Of a stretch of DNA of 64,000 nt, positions 14,239 to 19,814 are shown in pieces. Source of the stretch: Pseudobdellovibrionaceae bacterium. Lineage in GTDB: Bacteria; Bdellovibrionota; Bdellovibrionia; Bdellovibrionales; Bdellovibrionaceae. Both the position numbers and the translations under genes were made by a program. The stretch spans positions 1-64,000 of the forward strand of contig JAHBUS010000012.1 of NCBI GenBank assembly GCA_019637955.1, given 5' to 3'. A model generated the notes under the pieces. That model worked only from the letters and a program-made list of their open reading frames with translations, was not told the origin of the DNA and searched no databases. How positions within the stretch are numbered: position 1 is the first letter of the stretch; each line of letters begins with the position of its first letter.

Positions 14239-15273
14239 TCAAAAGTAAACGTTCTGCTCGCCCCACTGCTGCGTGAGGCCGCGCACGTGCTGCAAAAGGG
14301 CTTGTGCGCGCGCCAAGAGCGACGACGCATCGGATTTCAGGCGAAGGGCCGTGATCAAGTCATTGCGTTCAGGTCCGCTCAAAAGATCAGCCAAACGCTG
14401 CACGCGCTGGATCTGCGCGCGGTCAAAGCGGCTGACAATTTTCAAGTACGTCGTGACCTGATTGGTTCCGCGCATCGACGCTCCGCCATTGTCGCGGGCG
14501 AAGAAGAACAGTTTGCCGTTGCCGTCGATCGAAGCCTCGACGTTGCCGCCACTCCAGCGGTCCCATTGTCCGCACAAGAGGTCCAGAACCATGATCTGCG
14601 AAAACTGGCGCGAGAGTTCAAGCTCGCTCTGCGTGGGCGTGCTTCCGTTTTTCGCCTTCACCCCTTTGAGTGACATTTCGCGAGTCGTGGGACGGGGGCC
14701 ATCGGCGCGGATAAATTGCGCGATGGGGTGCGCGCGGTTGATGGTGTTGGCATCGGGGTTCGCGACGTCCAAAGCCTCCCACTCATCGGTCTTGGGCGTG
14801 AGCACGCCCGCCAGTGAGTTGGGATTCGCCCGGATCTTTTCGATCAACTCGTCTTGATTTTCGCGGCGCCATTGATTGCGCTCGTTCGCGCTGGTGAGCA
14901 TGCCGTAGAAAATCTGCGTGGTGCGCGGCCCGATCGTGTAAGGAGCCGAAGGAACCACGAGGGCGCTCATGCGCAGAAACTGCGCCAGGCGGTGCGACAC
15001 CAGCTGAGCTTCCGAATTGGCGGCGCCGTTTGCGGGTAAGAACTTGCCGACCGACTTTCCGGCGGGGTCTTTGATTTTAAGCCCCAGCGACGTGCCGCCC
15101 GGTTTGTACTCAAGTTGGTAGGACGGGTCTTCAAGATTGAGCGCCGCCGCCTTGGCTTCGAAGGCCTGATCCTGCGCCAAAATTTGAAATTCTTCCGAGC
15201 GCACATCGCGGGCCAGGGCCGAGACCGAGCAGCCCGTCAGGGCGAGGAGGGTGAGGGTCCATCCGAGTTTCAT
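14239..15273 (-). CDS. Kinase-like (CotH/Fam20/HipA-type) lipoprotein
   Basis: About 344 residues. The signal peptide ends LLALTGC, a lipobox, so the product should be anchored outside the inner membrane. The body has features of atypical protein kinases: a glycine/lysine beta unit (GGTSLGLKIKDPAGKSVGKF), a helix (EAQLVSHRLAQFLRMS), a catalytic-loop-like LLCGQWDRWSGGN with Asp and Asn, and a metal-binding-like FFARDNGG. CotH-type kinases are frequent neighbours of VTC-domain and DUF4956 genes. It is the last gene of that operon here, 22 bases after VTC. AAAGGA precedes the ATG at 15273; another ATG lies at 15291. Kinase activity is inferred. Confidence 0.72.
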   Translation of the reverse strand: MKLGWTLTLLALTGCSVSALARDVRSEEFQILAQDQAFEAKAAALNLEDPSYQLEYKPGGTSLGLKIKDPAGKSVGKFLPANGAANSEAQLVSHRLAQFLRMSALVVPSAPYTIGPRTTQIFYGMLTSANERNQWRRENQDELIEKIRANPNSLAGVLTPKTDEWEALDVANPDANTINRAHPIAQFIRADGPRPTTREMSLKGVKAKNGSTPTQSELELSRQFSQIMVLDLLCGQWDRWSGGNVEASIDGNGKLFFFARDNGGASMRGTNQVTTYLKIVSRFDRAQIQRVQRLADLLSGPERNDLITALRLKSDASSLLARAQALLQHVRGLTQQWGEQNVYF

Positions 15274-15295
15274 GAAAAATCCTTTCATCAATGTT

Positions 15296-16099
15296 TTATC
15301 TTAAAAATGAAGTTTGAATGCGGCCGCCGGCGAAGTCCTCGAAGCCCTGCGGTGAGTAGCACTCGCGCATGCTGCCTTCAAATTTCGAAAACCCGCGCCG
15401 GACCAGATCAAAGCGTTTGATCAGATCCACCATCCAAACCGGGATCTTGCGTTCGCATTTGAGCTCCAAAATCACGTTCACGCCCGGCATGCCGAAGGTG
15501 GCCGGATGGTCATAATTGAGCATCTCCTCTTCGCGAGGGATGACATCGTAACCCGTTTCCATGCGGTAGCGCAGGCTTCGGTCAAACGTGATCCGGGCGT
15601 AATCGTCGACGGTCGAGAGGTAAGCCTTGCGCCGGTACTGGGTTAAGATCATCGGGCTGGCGCCGTAGGTGCTGACCAGACCCATGAAGTGCATCAAGTG
15701 AGGATCTTCAGTGGGGTCAAAGTCTTTGATGCTCTCGGGTTTGAGAAAGAGATCGCCCCAGTTTTCGAACGGGACCCGGCCCCGCCGCTTTTTCGAAAAC
15801 TCAGCCGTCTTTTCTTTCGTCTCGAAATAATAGGGAGGCTTCGGGTTGTCGCCGTAGGACCGCACGCGCAGGCTCATCTTTCCGGTCAAATTTTCTTTGG
15901 CGCGGATGAAATGGTAATTGGGCGTCTCAAAATACAGACTGTTGATCGTGTAGAAGTGGTCGGGAGAGATCTGCGAGTAGTAATCCATGTCGCAAAACGC
16001 TTCGACGTAGCGGGAGATCGGCTCGACCATCGAAAACGGAATGAGATACTTCAGTTCGTACCGTTCCAGAACCAAGGGAGAAACGGGACCCACCGCCAT
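15296..16099 (-). CDS. VTC-domain polyphosphate polymerase-like protein
   Basis: A 267-residue protein that is one VTC domain, the tunnel-shaped catalytic domain of eukaryotic Vtc4 that builds polyphosphate from ATP. Basic and acidic tunnel residues are visible: LERYELKYLIP, LRVRSYGD, YFETKEKT, KKRRGRVPF, LTQYRRKAYL, RITFDRSLRYR and the metal-ligand strand VILELKCERK. There is no signal peptide, so it acts in the cytoplasm. Its ATG overlaps the TolC-like gene's stop (TAATG), so it is translationally coupled. Polymer synthesis is inferred from the family; the product could be polyphosphate or a related polymer. Confidence 0.9.
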   Translation of the reverse strand: MAVGPVSPLVLERYELKYLIPFSMVEPISRYVEAFCDMDYYSQISPDHFYTINSLYFETPNYHFIRAKENLTGKMSLRVRSYGDNPKPPYYFETKEKTAEFSKKRRGRVPFENWGDLFLKPESIKDFDPTEDPHLMHFMGLVSTYGASPMILTQYRRKAYLSTVDDYARITFDRSLRYRMETGYDVIPREEEMLNYDHPATFGMPGVNVILELKCERKIPVWMVDLIKRFDLVRRGFSKFEGSMRECYSPQGFEDFAGGRIQTSFLR

Positions 16100-17328
16100 T
16101 AGAGAATCCTCTTGGCGGTCTTCGAAAGGTGATTGGACTCGGGCGCCGAAGCGATGGATGAGGATTCATGCAAGTACTTGATGTAGAGCGCGCGGATCCG
16201 GAACTCCAGATCCAACAAGTGTTCGCGGCTTTCGAGCCATCCGCGCTGCAGGTCCAGCGCGAGCATCGGGTCTTGGCCCGCGATGGCGCTACTGGCCCGG
16301 CGAAGTTCATCGGGATTCATGCGAGACGTCTCGCGCATTGATTTGTGCAAGTCCAAGAGCGTGCGCAGTTCGGTCACGGTATTTTTGTAATCGCGGTCCG
16401 AAAGAGCGGTGGTTTCGCGCGATTTGTTGCGTTCGCGCAGCATTTTGATTCGCTTGTCGACGGCCGAGAGGTCGGGCGCACCCGCGAACGGGAGATTGAT
16501 GGCGACTTCGACCCCGTAAACCTTTTCGCCCTTGTCATCCTTCATCGAGACTTCGATGTGTTCGAGCCATTTCTCGTCGCGGGCGCGGTCGTACTGCAAG
16601 GCCGACTGCGATTTTTCAAGATCGGCGAGAACAACTTGATTTGTCAGCGTTTGCTCGAGGCGCTTGTCGGCGGCTCCGTCGAATTTCGTGCGGATGTCGT
16701 CGATCGAAGCCAGATCTGTGAGATCGAATTGGTCGATCCCGCCCAATTGCAGGTCGCTGAGTTCGCTCTGCGTGTTGCTGTAATCGCGCTGGATGTCGGC
16801 GATCTTCAGGTCGATCTTGTCCAGATCGGTTTTGGCTTTGAGGTAGGATTTCAGTTCGGTGCGGCTTTTCTGGGCCGCGTACGAAAGGGCTTTCGAAGCG
16901 CGGCGGCTCACCTGCGAGAGCTGATCGGCCATCGCCTTTTTCTCTTTGGCTAGAGTCAGCCGCGCGATCAGGTCGTAGCGGGCCACCAGCATCTTTGAGA
17001 GGGCCTCGCTCAGGGCGGCCTCTTCGTTTTTTTCGAGCGCGCGCTGAAAACGCGAGCTGGCGACGTGTTCGGAGTACCCCTTCGGGTACAAACGCAGACC
17101 CACTTTGACGTCTTGCTGGTTCAGTTCGCCGCGGTCAAACCGGATGTCGGCTTTTTCCAGTGGATTCAGGCTCGACGCGTCCTTCGTCAGGCGCACGGCC
17201 TCTTGTTGGTTGGCGATTTGCGGATCTTTCCAGGCCGTCTTTAAAATGTCCTCGGGCGAGGCGGCCCAAAGGGGCGCCTGCACGAGCGAAAGGCCGGCAA
17301 AGAGAAGGGCGGCGGTCTTACTTTTCAT
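16099..17328 (-). CDS. TolC-like outer-membrane efflux protein
   Basis: A 409-residue protein with signal peptide (MKSKTAALLFAGLSLVQAPLWA) and long alpha-helical coiled-coil stretches (ALSEALSKMLVARYDLIARL; KKAMADQLSQVSRRASKAL), the layout of an outer-membrane efflux protein. It is somewhat divergent from canonical TolC: the beta-barrel segments are short and hard to see apart from KVGLRLYPKG and YGVEVAINLPFAG. It overlaps the adaptor gene upstream by 11 bases and the VTC gene downstream at TAATG. It likely forms the outer-membrane exit of the operon's machine. Confidence 0.8.
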   Translation of the reverse strand: MKSKTAALLFAGLSLVQAPLWAASPEDILKTAWKDPQIANQQEAVRLTKDASSLNPLEKADIRFDRGELNQQDVKVGLRLYPKGYSEHVASSRFQRALEKNEEAALSEALSKMLVARYDLIARLTLAKEKKAMADQLSQVSRRASKALSYAAQKSRTELKSYLKAKTDLDKIDLKIADIQRDYSNTQSELSDLQLGGIDQFDLTDLASIDDIRTKFDGAADKRLEQTLTNQVVLADLEKSQSALQYDRARDEKWLEHIEVSMKDDKGEKVYGVEVAINLPFAGAPDLSAVDKRIKMLRERNKSRETTALSDRDYKNTVTELRTLLDLHKSMRETSRMNPDELRRASSAIAGQDPMLALDLQRGWLESREHLLDLEFRIRALYIKYLHESSSIASAPESNHLSKTAKRIL

Positions 17329-19141
17329 TTTTCTTGGCCGGGGCCTTCACGGCATTTTGGAGGGAGAGGCGTGTGAATTTGGCGGTTTCGTCCTTGAGGT
17401 CGAAAGCGACGAAGAGCGAGCTGTCTTTGGTGTCGAGCGCGAGCCCTTCGGGTTTAAGCCCCTTGAACTCGCGGATCAGTTCGGGCGTGACCACACCCTG
17501 GTTCTCCTGAAGGCGCCAAACGGCCCCGCAGTTTTCGTCGTCGCAGACGGTGGCCGCGTACAGGCGCCCTTTGATCTTGATCAAGTCGCTGAGGCGCTGA
17601 CTCTGCCCTTGGTTTTTGCCGAAATCCAAGGCCTTCCAAAGAGCGACGTTCTCGCTCTTGAGAGTCTTGGTTTTCAAGAGCGCATCGACGCCCTTGACCA
17701 CCACGATGGCGGTTTTGTCACCCTCGAGGAAGGGCTCTTTAAAGCCGAGATAAAGATCGCCGCCATCAACGAAGTGGCTCTCGATTTCAAAGTCGTCTTC
17801 GTCCGCGGACTTGAGCAGAGCCTGCAAAGCTTTATCTTGACCGGCTTTGATCGCCTTGATGAGCAAAGGTTTGAGTTCGACTTGGCCCACGACCGAGAGG
17901 TCCAGTCCCGAGCGCTTGATTTCGACAAAGAGATTTCGTTCGGACTTTTCTTTGCCTTTTTTGGTCAGGCCTTGCGACGCGAGAATGTAAATCGAATCGC
18001 CGCTTTGGCTGATCGACTCGAGGTCCGAAATTTTGTCAAGGCCCGCGACCGTCAGGACTTGGTCATCCACTTTGCCGTCCCGGTCGGCCAAAAACAGGGT
18101 CGCGCTCTTTTTCTTGTCGGTGTCGTCGCTGACGATCAGGTATTTCTTTAAATCCTCCAGGTACAAAACGCCCGAAGGCTCGAACGAATAGCGTCGGCCC
18201 AAGCCCGAAGGCAGGTGCATGGCCTGAGGAGCCATCTCGGGCTCGGCAATCGCCGCCGCGCTCGCGGTTTCGGTTGCCGCCACCGCGATCGGAAAGCTGA
18301 AGAGTTCAAACTTGGGTTTGATTTGAACTTTTTCACCCAAAAGCAGGCCGTTTTGCGAGGGGATTTCGACCACGACTTCGCGGCCCCAAATCTGAACGTT
18401 CGGAAAGTGCATCAGGCGCGGGGGCATCAGGATGATGCGCGAGCCGACGCTGACGATCTTGCCTTGCAAAGTGGCGTGGCCGCGCGTGAGCGGAACCACC
18501 GACACGGTTTTGCCGATCTCGAGTTTGGTTTGCAAATTCTCATGAACGAAGCCCTCGACATAGGAGGGGTTCGCGGGCGAGAGCGTGAGCACACTCGTGA
18601 ACGCGGGAACCTTCTCGCCTTTTTTGAAATTCACGGCGCCGACGATCCCATCGACCTCGGCGAAAACGTAAAGATTCTTCTTTTGCAGCTCGAGGTACTC
18701 GATCTCTTGGCCCAGGTCTTCGATGTCGACCGCGAGCGGGTCGGCGAGGTCAACGCTCGACGAGTTGCTCACGATCGAGTTCAGGTGCTGACGCACTTTC
18801 ATCTCGGATTGCAGCTTCGCCATTTGCGATCTTGCCAGGCGCAGGCGTGAATTCAGCTCGGACTGATTGAGCTCGATCAAGAGATCGCCTTTTTTGACCA
18901 TCTGTCCCGCCAGGACGTGGATGCGTTTGATCTCGACCGGCGATTCGAAATTGACTTGCAGTTCGCGCGAATCGGCGACGCCCAAAAAGCTCATGGACTC
19001 GGAGCCCATGTAGAAGCTCAAGGCGACCACGCCGGCCAAGCAGGCGGCCCAGACCATGGCCATGTAGCGGTTGTCGGTCCCGACGATGTCTTCTTGAATA
19101 ATCGTGATGAGTTTTTTGATGGATTTCACGTCAGACCTCAA
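17318..19141 (-). CDS. HlyD-like adaptor fused to a beta-propeller-like domain
   Basis: A 607-residue inner-membrane-anchored periplasmic protein. A single helix lies near residues 27-45 (MAMVWAACLAGVVALSFYMG). A HlyD/membrane-fusion part follows: the lipoyl half VEIKRIHVLAGQMVKKGDLL, a coiled-coil hairpin (LNSRLRLARSQMAKLQSEM) and the second half VDGIVGAVNFKKGEKVPAFT. After about residue 300 comes an approximately 300-residue domain with repeated blade-like strands (GVLYLEDLKKYLIVSDD; DLESISQSGDSIYILAS; PEGLALDTKDSSLFVAF), like SdiA-regulated or esterase-like-phytase propellers. This fusion is unusual. It overlaps neighbours on both sides by 11 bases, so translation is coupled. Confidence 0.8.
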   Translation of the reverse strand: MRSDVKSIKKLITIIQEDIVGTDNRYMAMVWAACLAGVVALSFYMGSESMSFLGVADSRELQVNFESPVEIKRIHVLAGQMVKKGDLLIELNQSELNSRLRLARSQMAKLQSEMKVRQHLNSIVSNSSSVDLADPLAVDIEDLGQEIEYLELQKKNLYVFAEVDGIVGAVNFKKGEKVPAFTSVLTLSPANPSYVEGFVHENLQTKLEIGKTVSVVPLTRGHATLQGKIVSVGSRIILMPPRLMHFPNVQIWGREVVVEIPSQNGLLLGEKVQIKPKFELFSFPIAVAATETASAAAIAEPEMAPQAMHLPSGLGRRYSFEPSGVLYLEDLKKYLIVSDDTDKKKSATLFLADRDGKVDDQVLTVAGLDKISDLESISQSGDSIYILASQGLTKKGKEKSERNLFVEIKRSGLDLSVVGQVELKPLLIKAIKAGQDKALQALLKSADEDDFEIESHFVDGGDLYLGFKEPFLEGDKTAIVVVKGVDALLKTKTLKSENVALWKALDFGKNQGQSQRLSDLIKIKGRLYAATVCDDENCGAVWRLQENQGVVTPELIREFKGLKPEGLALDTKDSSLFVAFDLKDETAKFTRLSLQNAVKAPAKKNEK

Positions 19142-19814
19142 TGATCGAGTCTTGCATCATCAGGTTGACGCCCTTGGCGCCCGGAACCTTCTGCAATGAA
19201 GACAGCATCGAATGGTTGGTGGTTTTGCCTTTGAACTTCAATTGATAGGCGTAGTCGAGAAGATCGCCTTGGCCGATTTCGCGGACCGAGATCATCGCGA
19301 AGTGTTTGCAGTTTTCGTTCAGCACCTTCTCGAGTTCACGCACGTTTTCGTCTTCGCGCTTCAAATGCAGGCGCAAGAGGGCGTCGAACTGGGGACCGTG
19401 GGCGAAGGGCGTCTTGGCCAACACCAGCGTCGAAGCCACAAAGCACATCGCCCCGATGGTGGCGATGGCGTAGGCGTGAACGCCGGCCGCGAGTCCGATC
19501 GCGAGTGAAGCGAAGATAAAGAACATGTCGCGGGGGTCTTTGATATTGGTGCGAAAGCGCAAAATCGAAATGGCGCCGATCATGCCGATCCCGCGCGCGA
19601 CATTGTCGCCGATCGCCTGCATCGCGGTGGCCGTCAGGATCGGGCAGAGCACCAAGCAGTGCAGAAAGTTTCGCGAGTACGACAAACCTTGAAAAGTTTT
19701 AACGTACAAGACGGCGATCACGGTGCCGAGAACGAAAGACAGCAGAAACGCGTAGAACACCGACAGGATTGTCGGGTTGGCCATGGATGTGCTGAGCACA
19801 TTAAAATCAAGCAT
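19131..19814 (-). CDS. DUF4956 membrane protein, first gene of the VTC operon
   Basis: A 227-residue protein. The N-terminal two thirds has four or five membrane helices, with the family's conserved core (GDNVARGIGMIGAISILRFRTNIKDPRDM, given here as GMIGAISILRFRTN and KDPRDM). A cytoplasmic C-terminal ferredoxin-like domain ends with PGAKGVNLMMQDSIIEV. DUF4956 proteins commonly neighbour VTC-domain genes in bacteria, and their biochemical role is unknown. GGGGAG lies eight bases before the ATG. The 3' end overlaps the adaptor gene by 11 bases. A promoter is expected in 19815-19933 but no clear boxes were found. Confidence 0.88.
   Translation of the reverse strand: MLDFNVLSTSMANPTILSVFYAFLLSFVLGTVIAVLYVKTFQGLSYSRNFLHCLVLCPILTATAMQAIGDNVARGIGMIGAISILRFRTNIKDPRDMFFIFASLAIGLAAGVHAYAIATIGAMCFVASTLVLAKTPFAHGPQFDALLRLHLKREDENVRELEKVLNENCKHFAMISVREIGQGDLLDYAYQLKFKGKTTNHSMLSSLQKVPGAKGVNLMMQDSIIEV

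Follow-up and report, generated by a model that had tools for sequence, protein, structure and literature searches.

A conserved gene module joining a VTC polymerase domain and DUF4956 to a MacA-like adaptor and a TolC-like protein, proposed as a polyphosphate export machine

We analysed a stretch of 64,000 nucleotides from a Pseudobdellovibrionaceae bacterium (assembly GCA_019637955.1, contig JAHBUS010000012.1, positions 1 to 64,000 of the forward strand), hereafter called the window. It contains an operon in which a VTC polyphosphate polymerase domain and a DUF4956 membrane protein are encoded together with a HlyD-like periplasmic adaptor and a TolC-like outer-membrane protein. An earlier sequence-only reading had placed five minus-strand genes between positions 14239 and 19814, and all five open reading frames (ORFs) are found there:

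19131..19814, minus strand: DUF4956 membrane protein, 227 amino acids (aa); PF16316, with an MgtC-like membrane domain and a soluble C-terminal domain
17318..19129, minus strand: periplasmic adaptor with a C-terminal beta-propeller, 603 aa; HlyD Pfam domains, GTG start
16099..17328, minus strand: TolC-like outer-membrane channel subunit, 409 aa, assigned from its predicted fold
15296..16099, minus strand: VTC polyphosphate polymerase domain, 267 aa; PF09359
14239..15273, minus strand: putative lipoprotein (fifth gene), 344 aa; kinase-like by motif only and outside the conserved core

Three of the four gene junctions described in that reading stand. Read from the sequence, the adaptor and TolC-like genes overlap by 11 bases (ATGAAAAGTAA), the TolC-like and VTC genes meet in TAATG, and 22 bases separate VTC from the fifth gene, provided that the ATG at 15273, which follows AAAGGA, is used. 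The remaining claim, an 11-base overlap between DUF4956 and the adaptor, demands a TTG start at 19141. From the sequence, the most likely adaptor start is instead the GTG at 19129, one base past the DUF4956 stop, and with this start the reported overlap disappears; the adaptor of a homologous locus (L033) likewise begins just past the DUF4956 stop. Tight junctions by themselves are ordinary for operons. It is the conservation of the gene set in 77 distinct loci that puts the association beyond chance. Promoter and terminator scans of the locus performed near chance level, so operon boundaries were not set from them, and an Rfam search found no family. Pfam identified no ABC, MFS or RND pump in any of the five genes or in the M48 gene upstream of them, and the gene maps of relatives, in which most neighbours were not searched by family, showed no recurring pump. 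Pfam likewise found no glycosyltransferase or Pel genes in these five, and the search for Pel genes covered them alone.

We searched 144 genomes of the window's class with the adaptor and obtained strong matches in 26, with regions around them encoding DUF4956, adaptor, TolC-like protein and VTC, in that order. The operon is also present in a single-contig genome (G004; 3,782,950 bases) and in a record titled Bdellovibrio bacteriovorus strain kdesi. Scanning named genomes with a DUF4956 profile recovered the four-gene set in Desulfonema, Desulfoluna, Desulfatirhabdium, Halobacteriovorax and rumen metagenome-assembled genomes (MAGs), some of the latter titled UBP6 or Spirochaetales; NCBI names the phylum of Desulfonema and Desulfoluna Thermodesulfobacteriota. 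Our survey comprised a few phylum-level samples (Bdellovibrionota, Desulfobacterota, Myxococcota and the UBP6-titled phylum). Of 395 genomes sampled from Desulfonema's phylum, 4 had adaptor matches. The corresponding figures were 16 of 28 for the phylum that includes a UBP6-titled genome, 32 of 331 for the one that includes a genome with Anaeromyxobacter in its title (Myxococcota, going by that title) and 11 of 129 for the Halobacteriovorax class; the last two figures include some matches to the propeller only.

Linkage was then counted by six-frame profile searches over the fetched loci, which gave 77 distinct adaptor loci, 28 found via DUF4956 itself and 49 via the adaptor. DUF4956 was detected in 76 of these, VTC in 72, the propeller in 70, a TolC-like gene in 68, CotH in 22 and the window's fifth gene in 1, and each locus missing DUF4956 or VTC has a contig edge adjoining the operon. 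Wherever DUF4956, VTC and the adaptor occur together, all three lie on the same strand (71/71). Within the subset found via the adaptor (n = 49), DUF4956 is present in 48 and VTC in 47, and the two loci without VTC end at contig edges. When the profiles, which had been trained on the 77 loci, were applied without retraining to a blind set of ten new regions, the adaptor was detected in nine, DUF4956 in all nine of these, and VTC in seven of the eight with full flanks. The order of the genes varies, with DUF4956-adaptor-OEP-VTC, adaptor-OEP-VTC-DUF4956 and VTC-DUF4956-adaptor-OEP all observed (OEP, the TolC-like outer-membrane protein). The four-gene core is a conserved module of at least four phyla, and because it is kept across phyla in permuted gene orders, the coupling of VTC and DUF4956 to an adaptor and a channel is not a local coincidence. 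The sequence-only reading had envisaged a genome search for a five-gene order; what recurs across phyla is a core of four in variable order, and with VTC beside the adaptor in 72 of 77 loci, the adaptor and outer-membrane protein do co-occur with VTC in other genomes.

The VTC protein matches PF09359 (E 5.1e-37; 128 bits, cut-off 23). A single-sequence search against the PDB returned nothing; with a profile built from 12 VTC proteins, yeast Vtc4 (3g3q, E 1.5e-18) was recovered. Eight active-site positions of Vtc4 (K200, R264, R266, K281, R361, R373, E426 and K458) align with K17, R78, R80, K95, R157, R169, E212 and K239 of the window protein, residues that are identical to those of Vtc4 and invariant in 12 relatives. 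R264, R266 and E426 are the positions altered in the Vtc4 variant of a published cryo-EM structure (PMC9911596). The aligned residues expected of a catalytic VTC protein are thus present, and the window VTC is likely an active enzyme. PPK1, the usual cytoplasmic enzyme, is encoded on another contig of the window genome, which suggests a separate job for VTC as a second polymerase. One genome, G049, has a second VTC gene (L102:5567-6254, G049:C133) with an in-frame stop and a frame change, apparently decayed, while its operon copy is intact.

VTC without an adaptor also occurs in the window's class, usually beside DUF4956 and often with CotH. Loci L087-L101 are adaptor-free VTC-DUF4956 pairs, some with CotH or an MMPL-type transporter nearby, whose VTC proteins belong to a more diverged branch. 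A quick tree built from 90 VTC proteins places the 75 adaptor-linked sequences, without exception, on one side of a branch with a Shimodaira-Hasegawa-like approximate likelihood ratio support (SH-aLRT) of 82; this group includes distant phyla, and the contrast set consists of non-adaptor VTC proteins of the window's class. Adaptor-linked VTC as a group of its own therefore receives moderate support in this tree, where the non-adaptor rows are long-branched. The adaptor-free pairs indicate that VTC and DUF4956 can work alone, in which case the periplasm or membrane might retain their polyphosphate, with the adaptor and TolC-like protein forming an unrelated, co-regulated exporter. We judge this very improbable, since the searches made turned up no adaptor of this subfamily without DUF4956 nearby (contig ends excepted), the set is retained while gene order varies, and adaptor-linked VTC proteins group together in the tree. 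A mobile-element origin was also considered and rejected: the adaptor is absent from the plasmid collection, and VTC has only distant plasmid matches. No VTC relatives were confirmed in viral contigs.

The DUF4956 protein matches PF16316 (E 1.1e-15, 58.2 bits against a cut-off of 30.6) and, in Pfam, also MgtC (E 2.8e-5). A simple hydropathy scan gives three clear transmembrane (TM) candidates; a Streptococcus relative is reported to combine a cytoplasmic ACT domain with four TM segments (PMC12345266). We compared residues across 92 DUF4956 proteins, 81 adaptor-linked and 11 others, and located a conserved basic stretch:

19530..19559, minus strand: conserved basic stretch of DUF4956 (R86, R88, K92, R95), from the alignment of 92 DUF4956 proteins

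R86 and R88 are invariant in all 92 sequences and K92 is K or R in all of them, while R95 and R148 stay basic throughout the 81 adaptor-linked proteins and in few of the 11 others. Basic residues also line the wall of the yeast VTC channel, where polyphosphate translocation depends on them (PMC9911596); the likeness to DUF4956 is one of kind, not of sequence. By this analogy, we propose that DUF4956 is an inner-membrane channel.

The adaptor matches the HlyD family PF13437 (E 3.1e-8), and HlyD Pfam matches occur in 36/36 of its relatives. Against the type I secretion HlyD subfamily TIGR01843 it scores 25.6 bits, under the curated cut-off of 208.65. Its structure model has a mean predicted local distance difference test score (pLDDT) of 84 and a predicted template modelling score (pTM) of 0.54, so the placement of the domains relative to one another is unsure. 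Two parts can be delineated:

18299..19003, minus strand: HlyD/MacA-like adaptor region, residues about 43-277; VIA-align Z 15.5 to MacA 9qgy_G over residues 43-275
17336..18247, minus strand: adaptor beta-propeller, residues about 295-598; VIA-align matches to YjiK and nucleotidase

The N-terminal half of the model resembles MacA/MexA (E 5.3e-13). The HlyD-like call of the sequence-only reading thus holds for residues ~43-277, and the C-terminal half is a propeller that it had not seen. By VIA-align, this propeller resembles the C-terminal domain of E. coli YjiK (3qqz, Z 20.6) and human calcium-activated nucleotidase (2h2u/1s18, Z 17.2), with glutaminyl cyclases also among its fold matches, and adaptor relatives show weak Pfam matches to DUF3616, Phytase-like and SdiA-regulated families in the propeller half. 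Conserved acidic residues in this half (E317, D335, D369, E371, E450, D515 and E561) suggest a metal site. About 1 in 11 adaptors has no detectable propeller, a few of these being cut by contig ends or small indels, so the propeller is not essential to the adaptor family.

Other variation in the adaptor family was noted. In L117, L120, L128 and their relatives (Desulfobacterota and UBP6-titled genomes), adaptors are longer, about 640-730 aa, with the additional sequence in the N-terminal half, apparently in the hairpin region, so lineages may differ in the reach of the adaptor. Stand-alone propeller relatives lie away from any adaptor at L049:5126-6082, L050:3126-4043, L051:4937-5902 and L271:5172-6134, the one in L049 coming after genes that read like ExbB/ExbD/TonB. 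At L046:7495-8568 (G118:C94, a MAG), a 357-aa ORF fuses an adaptor/propeller part in frame to a C-terminal part of VTC, at a locus without a DUF4956 or TolC-like gene; this is probably a deletion or an assembly join.

The identity of the TolC-like protein was settled by fold search. The window protein has no Pfam match of its own, PF02321 matches occur in 5 of 20 relatives, and a PDB profile search gave coiled-coil noise only. Its model (pLDDT 88.9, from a 35-sequence alignment) has two beta hairpins and long paired helices, as in a TolC protomer. Foldseek ranked TolC, ST50, SilC and CusC at the top, with E. coli TolC as best match (E 1.9e-11; TM-score 0.63 by query). The protein is thus predicted to fold as a TolC protomer.

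From these parts, we think it somewhat probable that the four genes (15296-19814) encode one envelope-spanning machine for the synthesis-coupled export of a phosphate polymer, most likely polyphosphate. We infer the identity of the polymer, the outward direction, the physical assembly of the parts and the roles of the propeller and CotH, and the steps would run as follows. VTC would polymerise ATP-derived phosphate in the cytoplasm, and the growing chain would enter the DUF4956 inner-membrane channel, a bacterial counterpart of the membrane channel of yeast Vtc1/3/4. The chain would then traverse the periplasmic adaptor ring and leave via the TolC-like trimer. As no ABC, MFS or RND pump is encoded, polymerisation itself would be the driving force, perhaps aided by the membrane potential. 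The adaptor propeller, whose fold is like that of a calcium-dependent nucleotidase and YjiK, is probably periplasmic and could serve as a gate or anchor, and a surface acceptor may be modified by the secreted CotH kinase that is often found with the module in other phyla. A precedent exists in yeast, where VTC couples polyphosphate synthesis to translocation (PMC9911596). More tentatively, the module may represent a new class of secretion machine, spread over at least four phyla and consisting of a pump-free tripartite conduit that is driven by the polymerase and leads from cytoplasmic polyphosphate across both membranes to the cell surface, with a metal-binding adaptor propeller and often a CotH kinase that attaches or modifies the polymer; we regard this fuller version as possible, short of probable.

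Several points weigh against polyphosphate export. The VTC residues that we checked also occur in triphosphatases of the tunnel-enzyme superfamily, and their retention would not separate a polymerase from a triphosphatase or hydrolase. Alternatively, the machine could be an importer or a sensor: external polyphosphate or phosphate would be taken up through the channel and adaptor, and VTC would act as a phosphohydrolase or storage enzyme. Such a role would fit a tunnel-enzyme family that includes triphosphatases, as well as a propeller resembling calcium-activated nucleotidase, a phosphoanhydride hydrolase. It appears quite improbable to us, because the known pairings of a TolC-like channel with a HlyD-type adaptor work outward and sequence groups the VTC protein with the Vtc4 polymerase.

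The remaining points concern linkage and genetics. At L263:5514-9264 (G928:C8), DUF4956, the adaptor and the TolC-like gene are followed by other genes and no VTC is adjacent, which makes this locus the sole complete exception to the linkage (in adjacency only; VTC elsewhere in that genome was not searched). The six-frame profile search also detected no TolC-like gene in some Myxococcota loci. Deletion of VTC in Streptococcus intermedius had no reported effect on aggregation or Pel, whereas deletions of DUF4956 and CotH had one (PMC12345266). The Gram-positive VTC-DUF4956-CotH trio may therefore serve a polysaccharide, and in our view no published finding argues more strongly than this deletion result against reading the module simply as a polyphosphate machine, though S. 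intermedius has no outer membrane. The Pel-linked trio suggests the main rival of polyphosphate export, in which the adaptor and TolC-like protein export another polymer or substrate (polysaccharide, protein) and VTC, DUF4956 and CotH are modifiers that phosphorylate or regulate. HlyD/TolC-like proteins serve many substrates elsewhere, and at L263 an adaptor locus has no adjacent VTC. In Gram-positives, the trio adjoins Pel polysaccharide operons (PMC7112168), and deletions of DUF4956 and CotH alter Pel levels and aggregation (PMC12345266). We nevertheless find export of another substrate rather unlikely, as no glycosyltransferase, pump or substrate gene recurs beside the core in the gene maps (most neighbours not having been searched by family), and VTC stays with the adaptor through order changes in four phyla, which is more than a regulator usually needs.

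The sequence-only reading had also counted the fifth protein, a kinase-like lipoprotein, as a machine part, and this is not supported. As read from the sequence, the protein carries an LTGC lipobox and a DRWSGGN ... ARDNGG motif, like kinase catalytic and metal loops. We considered a CotH or Fam20-type kinase and rejected it, there being no Pfam, NCBIfam or PDB match; when the protein was compared with the CotH profile, the DR..N and DN motifs aligned without significance, and CotH kinase PF08757 has no match in the fifth protein or anywhere in the window genome. A sequence search found the gene in 6 of the 144 genomes of the class, and of the contexts that were read only that of the window places it beside VTC; in G039, which has the closest related operon found, VTC is on contig 2 and the fifth gene on contig 3. 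Absent from all other adaptor loci, the fifth gene is a lineage-specific neighbour and not part of the conserved module, and it may be co-transcribed with the operon in the window lineage alone. Related putative lipoproteins at L104:5238-6086, L105:5869-7113 and L106:5791-7212 are unlinked to VTC, and the family shares a DR..GGN / DNGG motif and has no Pfam family. The idea of a kinase in the system survives in other lineages, where true CotH genes sit in the cluster (for example L117, L120 and L139) at either end or inside it; the window genome has none.

Some bacteria have polyphosphate on their outside, and a 2023 gonococcal study leaves open which genes serve the crossing of the outer membrane (PMC10237660). 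The module is a concrete candidate route for this step, with parts that can be tested singly and culturable carriers in Bdellovibrio bacteriovorus strain kdesi, Desulfonema magnum and Desulfoluna limicola. If export is true, this would be a new class of machine and the first identified for polyphosphate export in bacteria: DUF4956 would gain a function, VTC would have a bacterial transport role parallel to that in the yeast vacuole, and a TolC-type conduit would be worked by a polymerase in place of a pump. In open-access full text, which leaves out most subscription papers, we found no account of a HlyD/TolC coupling for either VTC or DUF4956, and the VTC-DUF4956-CotH trio is described there only next to Pel loci. 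A 2025 Streptococcus paper states that the VTC-DUF4956-CotH trio was not found outside Pel loci (PMC12345266), and this Pel-only statement needs revision.

The set shares features with several known systems and lacks a defining feature of each. Like the yeast VTC complex (Vtc1/Vtc3/Vtc4), it has a polymerase domain with the active-site residues and a membrane partner with conserved basic residues, and synthesis is proposed to drive translocation in both. Unlike eukaryotic VTC, it has no SPX domain, the 267-aa protein being the VTC domain only; its membrane protein, encoded by a gene of its own, is DUF4956 in place of a Vtc1-type subunit, and the set is coupled to a conduit across two membranes. 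With HlyD/MacA-TolC exporters (type I secretion, MacAB-TolC, EmrAB-TolC) it shares a MacA-like adaptor and a TolC-like outer-membrane subunit; the defining ABC, MFS or RND pump is missing, a polymerase and DUF4956 stand in its place, and the adaptor bears a C-terminal propeller. The VTC and DUF4956 families, and CotH in other phyla, recall the accessory genes of Gram-positive Pel loci, but that trio is linked to pelDEADAFG, whereas the window operon is linked to an adaptor and a TolC-like protein and contains no Pel genes. As in synthase-dependent exopolysaccharide secretion (Pel, alginate, cellulose), a polymerase would feed its own envelope conduit, although here an inorganic phosphate polymer is expected, the conduit is of TolC type and the operon has no glycosyltransferase. 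Altogether, what is new is a VTC-DUF4956 module extended to both membranes.

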